Origin: Sulfuricella denitrificans | Lineage (GTDB): Bacteria; Pseudomonadota; Gammaproteobacteria; Burkholderiales; Sulfuricellaceae | Direction: 5' to 3' | Assembly: GCA_002632355.1 (NCBI GenBank) | Contig: NSJJ01000022.1 | Coordinates: forward strand, 1-34,559 | DNA length: 34,559 nt | Shown here: positions 19,930-23,993 of the stretch, piece after piece | How the letters are laid out: every line of letters begins with the position of its first letter | How positions within the stretch are numbered: the first letter of the stretch is position 1 | Made by a program: the position numbers and the translations under genes | Notes under the pieces: model-generated | The model's database searches: none | Told to the model about the DNA's origin: nothing | The model's input: the letters and a program-made list of their open reading frames with translations, nothing else

Positions 19930-21072
19930 ATGCGATACTGCAAAAAGTGCGTCAACCCGGACACCCGGCCCAACATCCATTTCGATGAGGAGGGCGTATG
20001 CCTGCCATGTCGTTTTGCCGAGCAGAAGAAGCATCATGAAGTCGACTGGGAAGCGCGCCGTCGGGAACTGGACGATATCATCCAGTGGGGGCGCGACCAT
20101 ACCTCGAACAGTTACGACTGCATCGTCACGGTCAGCGGCGGCAAGGACAGCATGCGTCAGGCCTTCTATGTGCGCGATGTACTGAAAGCCAAACCGCTGC
20201 TGGTCAGTTGCGCCTACCCGCCTGAGCAGATGTCCGAGCGTGGCGCACGCAACTTCGCCAACCTGATCGAGCATGGCTTCGACACCCTTAGCCTGAGCCT
20301 CAATCCGCAGGTCTGGAAAACCATGATGAATCAGGGTTTTCTCAAATATGCCAACTGGTGCAAATCCACCGAACTGGCGCTTTATGCAATACCGATTCAC
20401 GTCGCCATCGCCTACAAGATCCCGCTGGTTTTCCTTGGTGAGAACCCCGCTTTCACTATCGGTGAACGCACGGGTGGTCTGGATGGCGATGCCTCGCGCA
20501 TGAAATATTCCAATACGCTGGCGGGCGGCACTCCCGATCACCTCATGGCCGAGGGCATCACGCCACAGGATGTGCATTTCTACCGTTACCCTTCCGACAC
20601 CGAGCTTAGCGATGCAAACCTGCGTCTGGTCTATCTCGGCTATTACATCGAGGATTTCAACCATTACAGCAATGCCGAATTCGCCATCGCCCGTGGTTTG
20701 GAAATCCGTAACGAACCCCCGGAAGTCATCGGCGATATCAATGGTTACACAGCGCTGGATGAGGACTTCGTCACCGTCAACCAGATGATCAAATACATCA
20801 AGTTCGGTTTTGGCCGCGTCACTGACCAGGCTGCCGAAGGGATTGCCCTGGGGCATATGGATCGCCAGACCGGCATCGACCTGGTGACCCGCTATGACGG
20901 AAAATGCGATCCCGTTTACATCAGGCGTTATTGCCGGTACCTCGGCATCAGCGAAAACAAGTTCTGGGAAATCGTCGAATCTGTCAGAGGCAAGGACATC
21001 TGGGAAAAGGATGCCCATGGCAACTGGAAACTGAAAGTGGACCTGGCTTCCAGCCCGTCCCTTCAGGATTGA
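19930..21072 (+). CDS. N-acetyl-sugar amidotransferase (WbpG/PseA family), copy 1
   Basis: The 380-residue product has two CxxC pairs at the N-terminus (Cys4/7 and Cys24/27, a probable zinc site) and the ATP-pyrophosphatase P-loop SGGKDS (69-74). YIKFGFGRVTDQA and GISENKFWEIVESVRGKDIW near the C-terminus are typical of the family. WbpG and PseA convert a sugar N-acetyl group to an acetamidino group, using ammonia delivered by a HisH/HisF pair. The hisH- and hisF-like genes follow directly, the arrangement seen around wbpG in P. aeruginosa and pseA in C. jejuni. The substrate may be pseudaminic acid or the second sugar. It differs from copy 2 at 22734, which has SGGRDS in the loop. Confidence 0.9.
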   Translation: MRYCKKCVNPDTRPNIHFDEEGVCLPCRFAEQKKHHEVDWEARRRELDDIIQWGRDHTSNSYDCIVTVSGGKDSMRQAFYVRDVLKAKPLLVSCAYPPEQMSERGARNFANLIEHGFDTLSLSLNPQVWKTMMNQGFLKYANWCKSTELALYAIPIHVAIAYKIPLVFLGENPAFTIGERTGGLDGDASRMKYSNTLAGGTPDHLMAEGITPQDVHFYRYPSDTELSDANLRLVYLGYYIEDFNHYSNAEFAIARGLEIRNEPPEVIGDINGYTALDEDFVTVNQMIKYIKFGFGRVTDQAAEGIALGHMDRQTGIDLVTRYDGKCDPVYIRRYCRYLGISENKFWEIVESVRGKDIWEKDAHGNWKLKVDLASSPSLQD

Positions 21073-21078
21073 AAAACC

Positions 21079-21738
21079 ATGAAACCTCGTATCTGCATCA
21101 TTGATTACGGCATGGGCAACACCCAGTCGGTCGGCAACGCCATCCAGTACCTCGGCGTGGATTACCTGATTTCCAGCCGCAAGGAAGACATCCTGACCAG
21201 CACGGCGCTGATCCTCCCTGGCGTGGGCGCATTCGCTGCCGCCATGGACAATCTCCACCGTCTCGAACTGGTAGACTTGCTGACAGACGTGGTCGTCGGA
21301 AGGGGGAAACCCTTCCTTGGGATTTGCCTTGGCATGCAACTGCTGGCCAAAGATTCCGTCGAACTCGGCCTGCATTCCGGGCTGGGCTGGATCGAGGGGC
21401 ATGTGATTGCATTCGAGCCATCGCACGAAGTGCGTATTCCCCATGTCGGCTGGAACAATTGCCATATTCGTAAACAGGAGCCCCTGTTCCGCAATCTGGC
21501 CGAAGACGCCCATTTCTACTTCGACCATAGCTTTCACCTGTCCTGCCCGCACGAACTGGTCAGCGCCACCTTCGACTACGGCGGTCACTTCGTAGCCTCC
21601 GTGCAGAAAGACAATATCTTCGCAACCCAGTTTCACCCGGAAAAAAGCCAGCGTCATGGTCTCAGACTATTGAGAAACTTCCTGAATTTCGCCGCCTCGG
21701 CCCCAGCAAATACCGAACGGGAAAATGAACCATGCTGA
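21079..21738 (+). CDS. hisH: HisH-like glutamine amidotransferase
   Basis: The 219-residue class I glutaminase resembles the HisH subunit of imidazole-glycerol-phosphate synthase. The catalytic triad is intact: Cys83 in GICLGMQLLA, and His186 and Glu188 in QFHPEKSQ. IDYGMGNTQSVGNAI is the family start. No other histidine gene is nearby, and it sits between an N-acetyl-sugar amidotransferase and a degenerate HisF, so it most likely releases ammonia for sugar amidination, not histidine synthesis. The coding region overlaps the start of the HisF gene by 7 nt, which suggests 1:1 synthesis of the two. Confidence 0.92.
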   Translation: MKPRICIIDYGMGNTQSVGNAIQYLGVDYLISSRKEDILTSTALILPGVGAFAAAMDNLHRLELVDLLTDVVVGRGKPFLGICLGMQLLAKDSVELGLHSGLGWIEGHVIAFEPSHEVRIPHVGWNNCHIRKQEPLFRNLAEDAHFYFDHSFHLSCPHELVSATFDYGGHFVASVQKDNIFATQFHPEKSQRHGLRLLRNFLNFAASAPANTERENEPC

Positions 21739-22601
21739 AAACCCGCATCGTAGGCGTGCTGATCATCAAAAATGGCATCGTTGTCCAGAGCCTCCAGTTC
21801 AATCGCTACCTGCCTGTAGGCCGGGTTGCCATTGCCGTGGAATACCTCAATCGCTGGGGCATAGACGATATCGTTTTACTGGACATGGATGCCACCCCCC
21901 AGGGCAGATCGCCGAATTTCGAAAAAATCAGGGAATACTCCCGTTTTTGCCAGGTCCCCCTGACCGTTGGCGGCGGCGTGCGCAGTGTGAAGGATATGGA
22001 GAACCTGTTGCACGCCGGTGCCGACAGGATCGCCCTTAATGCCTCGGCCATCGCCAACCCCCAACTGATCAGCGAGGGTGCAAGGCTCTTCGGCAAACAG
22101 TGCATGGTGATCTCGATCGACGTACGACGCAAAACGGACGGCAACTATGAGGTTTTCAGCCATTCCGGCACTCGACCCACCGGCCAGAGCCCTGAAATAC
22201 TGGCACGGCAGCTTGAAAATCTGGGGGCAGGCGAAATTTTGCTGACATCCATCGACAATGACGGCATGAAACAGGGATTCGATCTGGAACTGGTCAGCCG
22301 GGTTGCCGAGGCCGTGGACATTCCGCTGGTCGCCTGCGGCGGCGCAGGCCACCCCGGGCATCTGCTGGAAGTCTGCAAACTGGGGGTTTCCGGCGTTGCA
22401 GCGGGTAATTTCTACCACTACACCGAGCACAGCGTCATTGTCGCCAAAAGCTATCTGCACGCGGCGGGGATCAATGTCCGGCTCGACTCGTTCGTGACCT
22501 ACGACGACTGCCATTTCGACAGCGATGGCCGTGTAGCGCGGATCAGCGATGAGACGCTGGAAAAATTGCGTTTCAAGGCGGTCCCGGAGGAAGTAATATG
22601 A
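21732..22601 (+). CDS. hisF: HisF-like protein lacking catalytic Asp11
   Basis: A TIM-barrel homologue of the HisF cyclase, 289 residues against about 255 for true HisF, with a C-terminal extension. Much of HisF is kept: LTVGGGVRSVKDMENLL, ADRIALNASAIANP, GAGEILLTSIDNDGMKQGFD and ACGGAGHPGHL. The second catalytic Asp is present in VISIDVRRK. The first catalytic Asp (Asp11 in the CLDVKDG motif of Thermotoga HisF) aligns without gaps to Ile11 in VGVLIIKNG. It probably cannot close the imidazole ring and instead acts as an ammonia channel between HisH and the sugar amidotransferase. The gene ends GGAGGAAG-TAATATGATG, a strong ribosome binding site for whatever follows. Confidence 0.92.
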   Translation: MLKTRIVGVLIIKNGIVVQSLQFNRYLPVGRVAIAVEYLNRWGIDDIVLLDMDATPQGRSPNFEKIREYSRFCQVPLTVGGGVRSVKDMENLLHAGADRIALNASAIANPQLISEGARLFGKQCMVISIDVRRKTDGNYEVFSHSGTRPTGQSPEILARQLENLGAGEILLTSIDNDGMKQGFDLELVSRVAEAVDIPLVACGGAGHPGHLLEVCKLGVSGVAAGNFYHYTEHSVIVAKSYLHAAGINVRLDSFVTYDDCHFDSDGRVARISDETLEKLRFKAVPEEVI

Positions 22602-22720
22602 TGACCTCCAAAAAAATTCTGAATTCGCTCAAATGCAAGGCGTGGAAAAAATTTCGCAGCGCCGCATATGATTTATATGTAAGCAAGAAATTTTTTTCCA
22701 CAACGCCGCAGTTGAGATGA
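22598..22720 (+). CDS. possible 40-residue basic small protein overlapping the hisF stop
   Basis: A short frame starts at an ATG overlapping the hisF-like stop (ATGA), as most genes here do, behind one of the best Shine-Dalgarno sequences in the window (GGAGG at 22586-22590). The predicted peptide begins MMTSKKILNSLKCKAWKKF and is strongly basic. It lies almost entirely inside a long inverted repeat, so it may be a fortuitous or leader peptide. Alternatively the strong ribosome binding site once belonged to the amidotransferase now starting at 22734. No homologue is recognised. Confidence 0.3.
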   Translation: MMTSKKILNSLKCKAWKKFRSAAYDLYVSKKFFSTTPQLR

Positions 22721-22733
22721 AGTCTGGATTTTT
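22610..22733. repeat. ~124-bp near-palindrome (MITE-like element or large RNA hairpin)
   Basis: The left arm (22610-22655) and right arm (22687-22733) are imperfect reverse complements over about 46 nt with a few mismatches and small bulges. The best part is GGAAAAAATTTC against GAAATTTTTTTCC. The 31-nt loop holds a smaller inverted repeat, CATAT-GATTT-ATATG (22665-22679). The element fills the gap between hisF and the second amidotransferase exactly and ends at that gene's ATG. No transposase and no clear target duplication are seen. It could be a miniature inverted-repeat element or a hairpin controlling downstream translation. Confidence 0.75.
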
Positions 22734-23993
22734 ATGAAATACTGCAAACGCTGCCTGTACCCGGAGAATCATCCGCTCAACCTCACGTTCGACGCCGAAG
22801 GCGTATGCAGCGGTTGCCGCGTGCATGAAGAAAAGGACGTCCTCGACTGGGAGGAGCGCAAGGAAAAGCTGCGCAGCCTGCTGACCGAGTTCAGATCGCG
22901 CTCGCGCAGCCTGCACGACTGCATCATCCCCGTCTCTGGCGGACGCGACTCCTACTTCATCGTGCACACCATCAAGCATGAATTCGGCATGAATCCGCTG
23001 CTGGTCAACTACAACAAACATTACAATACCCGCATGGGCATCCGCAATCTGGCCTATTTGCAGTCCCTGCTCGGTTGCGACATCTTCACCCAGACCGCCA
23101 GCCCTTCCATCGTCAAAAAAGTGACGCGCGAATCGCTGCGCCAGCTCGGCAGCATGTACTGGCACTGCCTGGCCGGAGGCACCGTGTTCCCGGTACAGAT
23201 CGCCGTCAAGTTCAAGATCCCGCTGATCATCTGGGGCGCCCACCAGGGCAACGACCAGGTCGGCATGTTCTCCCATCTCGACGAAGTCGAGATGACGCGC
23301 AAATACCGCAAGGACCACGATTTGATGGGCATGGAAGCGGAAGACCTGGTGCGTAACAGCAAAGAACTTACGCTCGCCGACATGGAACCCTTCCTCTACC
23401 CCCACGACAACGAAATCCGCTCCGTCGGGGTACGCGGCATCTACCTCAACAACTACATCCGCTGGGACTCCAAAGCACAGCACGAAAAAATGATCGCCGC
23501 CTACGGTTATGAAACCTCGGTTCAGCAACGGACTTTCGACACCTACAACGACGTGGACAGCTTTCATTATTCCGGCATTCACGATCACATCAAATTCCTC
23601 AAATGGGGCTATGGCAAGGTCAGTGATCATGCCAGCCGGGAAATCCGTCTCAAGCGCCTCACACGAGCGGAAGGCATTGCCCTGGTGCGCCAGTACCAGG
23701 ACAGGAAACCTGAAGATCTGGACCTGTTCCTGAAATGGGCAGAAATCAGCGAAGACCAGTTCTGGCAATGGATTGACCGTCACCGCGACCCGCGCATCTG
23801 GCAGAAAGACCCTTCAGGGCAGTGGCAGCTGCTGGACTCCGTCATTCACCATGAACATGACCAAGGCGTAGATGCGGTCAGACTGCCCAGGCAGGAACCC
23901 TGCCATTTCCAGCTCAATCCCCCACGCGACCCGAACGCTGTCGAGGACAAATACATTTTGATCGGCCGCGGCTGGGTGGACCAGAACGAGTAG
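22734..23993 (+). CDS. N-acetyl-sugar amidotransferase (WbpG/PseA family), copy 2
   Basis: The 419-residue product is the second member of the WbpG/PseA/PtmG family here. MKYCKRCLYPENHP and GVCSGCRVHE supply the Cys4/7 and Cys25/28 pairs, and the PP-loop is SGGRDS (68-73), with Arg replacing the Lys of copy 1. IKFLKWGYGKVSDHASREIR matches the family C-terminal block. It is about 40 residues longer than copy 1 at the C-terminus. It probably amidinates another N-acetyl group while sharing the single HisH/HisF pair. The ATG lies right behind a large inverted repeat, and no convincing ribosome binding site is visible, so translation may depend on coupling or on RNA structure. Confidence 0.88.
   Translation: MKYCKRCLYPENHPLNLTFDAEGVCSGCRVHEEKDVLDWEERKEKLRSLLTEFRSRSRSLHDCIIPVSGGRDSYFIVHTIKHEFGMNPLLVNYNKHYNTRMGIRNLAYLQSLLGCDIFTQTASPSIVKKVTRESLRQLGSMYWHCLAGGTVFPVQIAVKFKIPLIIWGAHQGNDQVGMFSHLDEVEMTRKYRKDHDLMGMEAEDLVRNSKELTLADMEPFLYPHDNEIRSVGVRGIYLNNYIRWDSKAQHEKMIAAYGYETSVQQRTFDTYNDVDSFHYSGIHDHIKFLKWGYGKVSDHASREIRLKRLTRAEGIALVRQYQDRKPEDLDLFLKWAEISEDQFWQWIDRHRDPRIWQKDPSGQWQLLDSVIHHEHDQGVDAVRLPRQEPCHFQLNPPRDPNAVEDKYILIGRGWVDQNE

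Follow-up and report, generated by a model that had tools for sequence, protein, structure and literature searches.

The question raised by the window, as the whole stretch of 34,559 nucleotides of Sulfuricella denitrificans DNA analysed here (contig NSJJ01000022.1) will be called, is what kind of sequence fills the gap between a hisF-like gene and the amidotransferase gene that follows it. The hisF-like gene (21732-22601, plus strand, with the stop codon TGA at 22599-22601) is intact and of the WbuZ/AglZ-HisF2 type; its matches to the NCBIfam models TIGR03572 (WbuZ, 3.8e-75) and NF038364 (3.9e-66) both fall below the curated cut-offs, and its protein is 89% identical to that of a relative from the same genus (genome G005, locus L032). 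The gene located immediately downstream of the gap (22734-23993, plus strand), also intact, encodes a WbuX-type N-acetyl sugar amidotransferase, which scores 343 bits against a cut-off of 203 with the NCBIfam model TIGR03573 and is 90% identical to its counterpart in the same relative. NCBIfam models also recognise a WbuX-type amidotransferase at 19930-21072 and HisH at 21079-21738, and within this cluster one HisH/HisF2 pair is flanked by the two WbuX-type N-acetyl sugar amidotransferases. Judging by these gene families, the role of the cluster is presumably surface-glycan amidation.

Between the end of the hisF-like gene (22601) and the first base of the amidotransferase gene (22734) lies a gap of 132 nt. 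A reading of this DNA made from the sequence only had described in it a near-palindrome with arms of about 46 nt and a 31-nt loop, and had proposed either the insertion of a miniature element that displaced the original start or a coupling or attenuation device. The palindrome filling the WbuZ/HisF2-WbuX gap was confirmed by RNA folding: the segment 22590-22760 has a minimum free energy of -46.1 kcal/mol, compared with a shuffled mean of -32.5 (sd 3.5; z -3.93), and none of 200 dinucleotide shuffles folds as well. The main hairpin extends over 22609-22736 with 50 pairs and is imperfect. Long arms are indeed present, but they are interrupted, and a strict ungapped inverted-repeat finder returned a single arm pair of 13 nt (22642-22654 and 22689-22701, 92%); the presumed loop folds into an inner stem of its own. 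The junction element is, with little room for doubt, a degraded copy of a MITE, a type of small, non-autonomous transposable element, inserted in a 4-base stop/start overlap, an assignment based on an empty site, 136 additional bases, dispersed relatives, matching ends, 4-bp duplications and arms kept across a family.

The empty site is found in the same-genus genome G005 (L032), the one genome that provides this evidence, where the two flanking genes are 84% and 86% identical in DNA sequence to those of the window. The junction there is devoid of the element: in its sequence, GAGGAAGTGATATGAAATACTGC, the stop codon of hisF and the start codon of the next gene share the bases ATGA. Instead of being separated, the two alignment blocks have exactly 5 bp in common, and the insert in the window amounts to 136 additional bases (131 unaligned plus the 5-bp overlap) with ATGA or TATGA on both sides. 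The left ATGA, a candidate target duplication, is located at 22598-22601 (TATGA if 22597 is counted; the empty site has a single TATGA), and the right ATGA, at 22734-22737, holds the amidotransferase start codon. The MITE copy itself, in plus orientation, occupies 22602-22733, or 22600-22733 if the GA is assigned to the element. The same -4 overlap occurs in 11 of 27 homologous loci, L032 included, with record titles from several phyla, and the empty junction is for this reason probably the ancestral state; the junction gaps of the 27 loci were projected from protein alignments rather than taken from annotated starts. Among the remaining loci, three have projected gaps of 3, 5 and 5, two have gaps of 92 bp, and 11 could not be read in this way; ten of these have distant HisF relatives, for which the projection of the stop is unreliable, and one has no HisF nearby. 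For the hisF pair of the window and L032 a dN of 0.059 and a dS of 0.79 were obtained, values that include the time before the insertion.

The element is present as a single copy in its own genome (all 11 candidates were scored, the next best having an E-value of 0.1). In a search of 399 genomes of the order, 22, its own genome included, matched at E<=0.001, representing 12 of 158 genera; up to two candidates were scored per genome, and some matches span only 31-64 bases. Of 12 genomes chosen for a count of match rows, 11 gave matches: 23 in G007, 14 in G019, 10 in G015, 9 in G017, 5 in G012, 4 in G013, 2 each in G190, G336 and G294, 1 each in G016 and G000, and 0 in G005. These rows differ from copy counts, as they include split matches and matches of the palindrome to itself on the reverse strand. 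The best matches to the window copy in related genomes are 79-91% identical over most of its length. Of the dispersed copies whose search in the source genome had been suggested, those in other genomes were found, but the source genome contains only the one; the insertion of a miniature element is nevertheless supported by these copies together with the empty site. Blastn searches of plasmids and phages with the window copy and an intact copy as queries gave no match. The exact 22-base end pattern had no matches in viral contigs; a 15-base core recovered 62 stretches, and blastn of the intact copy against these and L032-L058 gave a best E-value of 0.02. No description of the MITE family was found in the literature searched, and other papers on MITEs may describe it; two longer strings were absent among the matches listed in a literature text search.

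Alignment of the family copies with their flanks places GGGYRCCTCTAAAAATTC at one end and, mostly, the inverse of GGGCACCTCTAAAAATCC at the other; with up to three substitutions allowed, terminal inverted repeats of the GGGYRCCTCTAAAAATTC type are present on both sides. The terminal-repeat pairs that differ in their flanks number 47. Of these, 29 have a length of exactly 141 bp, three are of 142 bp, three of 195 bp and 12 of other lengths; a few of the sites are orthologous (e.g., L005 and L081), and three pairs are doubtful (L101, L104 and L198). Identical 4-bp flanks were found in 18 of the 47 pairs, compared with 1.7 on average and at most 6 in 1000 shuffles, and 29 pairs are without an exact 4-bp duplication. 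If the flanks are read as duplications of 2, 3 or 5 bp, they are identical in 11 (shuffled mean 6.0), three (2.0) and one (0.2) of the 47 pairs, and in none if read as 6-8 bp. The 32 pairs of 141-142 bp include 13 with a 4-bp duplication (shuffled mean 1.3, maximum 5). In an alignment of 34 copies, comprising the window copy and 33 others (L070 and the 32 pairs of 141-142 bp), pairing holds for 96.7% of the arm cells and 13 of 36 pairs show double changes, with none of 500 shuffles as high; arm pairing also exceeds that of slid controls. Two subfamilies differing in their arms can be distinguished, and many of the double changes separate the two, hence representing few events. The double changes show that the palindrome has been kept in the family and give no indication of its purpose. 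Longer relatives of 178-251 bp (L105, L108, L222, L120 and L123) have the same terminal repeats, some of them aligning only partly to the 141-bp form, and in a 157-bp copy (L012/L069, G016:C101) the ATTTCGCAGCGCAGC segment is duplicated internally.

The window copy differs from this family pattern by the loss of the right tip AGAGGTGCCC, by a left tip reading GATGACCTCC where the family has GGGCACCTCT, a poor match, and by small length changes in A and T runs. Since the right tip is missing and the left one matches the family poorly, the exact ends of the copy are ambiguous and two histories fit: either ATGA was duplicated and both tips were subsequently worn, or ATAT was duplicated and 12 bp were deleted at the right. 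According to the first, hisF would owe its stop, and the amidotransferase its start, to the duplication itself. Duplication of ATGA is also known from an IS5-type element in G076, and that of ATAT from the MITE copy L120. No match to PF01609 or PF05598 was found in the genome that harbours the window copy, which is therefore probably stranded there as an immobile copy.

From the ends and the duplication length we infer that the MITE was mobilised in trans, by an IS5-type transposase of the DDE class; related genomes contain elements of the IS5 family with near-identical ends, and the parent is probably of the IS5 type. In G011, a genome of the same family, the end GGGCACTTCTATAAATTC adjoins a DDE_Tnp_1 domain (PF01609, 8.4e-15) in an internally deleted copy (L170). 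Of the 20 matches in this genome, 8 or more are found no farther than about 220 bases from a contig end, and at least eight contigs begin or end that close to an IS5-type terminal repeat (L130, L170); this pattern suggests a collapsed multi-copy IS. In G021 the end GGGCACTTCTAAAAATTCAG, with 19 of 20 bases as in the MITE copies, precedes the ORF start MQSSFFDLDNRY at two contig ends; this end was found in 1 of 150 relatives. G076 carries an IS of about 1258 bp with the ends GGGAACCTCGAAAAACCT and GGCCACCTCGAATAACCC and with the 4-bp duplications ATGA, TTAT and TTAA in the three of its eight copies that were aligned, a duplication length which it has in common with the MITE. Relatives of the transposase occur in 149 plasmid records; among the matches listed, 30 in number and all from one species, each carries the annotation IS5 family transposase.

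Against an IS5-type parent, the L170-type transposase was detected in 8 of the 399 genomes of the order at E<=1e-10 and, at the same threshold, not in the MITE-bearing G012, G013, G015 and G016; the MITE-rich G017 and G019 gave no match to PF01609. Among 30 PF01609 loci in genomes of the family only L170 has a close terminal repeat, and five others require about four substitutions. In 11 loci with single terminal-repeat matches, no transposase was recognised near the ends in the ORF lists inspected by eye. The genomes searched yielded no complete IS with ends identical to those of the MITE that could be its parent; the ends found there are close, not identical.

The insertion would have left both proteins unharmed, with the target duplicated or the relevant bases retained in such a way that the hisF stop and the amidotransferase start were kept. 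The original start was not displaced, as had been supposed: its ATG is retained, and it is the Shine-Dalgarno sequence GGAGG (22586-22590, plus strand) that was moved away. In the empty state this sequence precedes the amidotransferase; now it precedes a 40-codon ORF (22598-22720, plus strand) created by the insertion and missing from the empty site; it arises as the ribosome binding site at the end of hisF and the left ATG now lead into the element. The ORF exists as the sequence-only reading claimed, well initiated and basic, with a computed pI of 10.4, and its stop ends 13 nt upstream of the amidotransferase ATG. As for the claim that the amidotransferase has no good ribosome binding site, its predicted pairing with the anti-Shine-Dalgarno sequence (-4.8 kcal/mol) is weaker than that of the small ORF (-9.5) and of the amidotransferase at the empty site (-12.1), a loss compared with the ancestral state, but it is not unusual for the cluster, four other genes of which have values of -4.6, -4.9, -4.3 and -1.3; random 20-mers of the window have a median of -3.6, with 5% at -8.7. 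Re-initiation at the amidotransferase ATG is plausible and, following translation of the 40 codons, may preserve some translational coupling.

The ORF looks like a by-product of the insertion, and no selection is needed to account for it, since open frames are common across the family copies: of 34 copies, 20 have at least 34 stop-free codons in a frame at the same left-end offset, and on the minus strand each of two frames stays open over at least 36 codons in 29 of the 34. The view that it is a functional peptide gene could draw on its strong Shine-Dalgarno sequence, its ATG and its basic character, and on the MITE copies with short basic peptide ORFs reported for QMITE1 (PMC5896051). We consider it very improbable, as the start signal comes from the gene overlap and not from the element, open frames are general in the family, run-length changes shift the frame through the middle of the window copy, which is thus read in a different frame, and the ORF has no NCBIfam match. 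The same open-framed arms could mean that the MITE family has a design that is transparent to translation, with a leader ORF running through the hairpin and re-initiation at the downstream start, an idea that we hold to be unlikely. If true, at insertions into a stop/start overlap the ribosome binding site of the upstream gene would drive the leader ORF, and a leader-peptide junction, with the genes expressed in a new ratio, would take the place of the coupled overlap.

That the hairpin is a selected regulatory device, such as an attenuator, an RNase III site or a coupling element determining how strongly the two WbuX amidotransferases are expressed relative to each other, would agree with its stability, with a ribosome-binding signal downstream that is weaker than in the empty-site relative, and with the cleavage of Correia-containing mRNA by RNase III mentioned in a review (PMC10969869). 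It is, however, missing from the relative in the same genus, as it is from the 10 further homologous loci in which the genes overlap directly, related sequence is present at many different sites in other genomes, and an Rfam scan of 22000-23500 with E up to 10 gave only three matches, all below the gathering scores. Nor is the start region less accessible than at the empty site, the mean unpaired probability around the amidotransferase start being 0.33 compared with 0.28. Such a device is quite unlikely in our estimation, and the coupling or attenuation proposed earlier gained no positive support; control of the amidotransferase ratio by the element is possible as a side effect. An integron attC site, a REP/RAYT palindrome or a simple terminator would likewise be palindromic and short, and dispersed as the element is, but these classes, by their usual defining features, do not fit with 4-bp duplications, a modal length of 141 bp and terminal repeats resembling those of DDE-transposase ISs, and the terminal T run belongs to the terminal-repeat arm; such an origin is scarcely credible. 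A MITE insertion explains the small ORF as well as the unusual junction, and no new regulatory system has to be invoked.

The junction element thus belongs to a familiar kind of element, the MITEs, rather than being a new regulatory device, and it represents a clean natural case, complete with its empty site, in which a palindromic transposon entered a 4-bp stop/start overlap and damaged neither gene. The family alignment could help to recognise such hairpins in related genomes of the order. Like IS5-derived MITEs (those of IS with a PF01609 DDE transposase), the family is short and does not contain a transposase gene, and it shares with them terminal inverted repeats similar to those of IS5-type elements, here of related genomes, and 4-bp target duplications; it differs in that a parent with its exact ends was not found complete among the genomes searched and that the window copy lacks one terminal tip. 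Chunjie, a MITE of Geobacter uraniireducens, is likewise inserted in an operon, and the title cited for it in the review states that the operon structure was left undisturbed; according to the same source it is 178-235 bp long with many copies in a single genome, whereas the window element is a single copy in a stop/start overlap (PMC10969869). The Correia element of Neisseria is also a small gene-adjacent MITE, the transcripts of which are cleaved at the terminal repeats, and promoter, IHF and RNase III roles are reported for it in the review (PMC10969869). Copies of QMITE1 from Coxiella burnetii contain short basic ORFs, as here, yet that element (PMC5896051) is 300-400 bp long with an annotated peptide family, DUF1658, whereas the ORF of the window starts outside the element proper, in the gene overlap.
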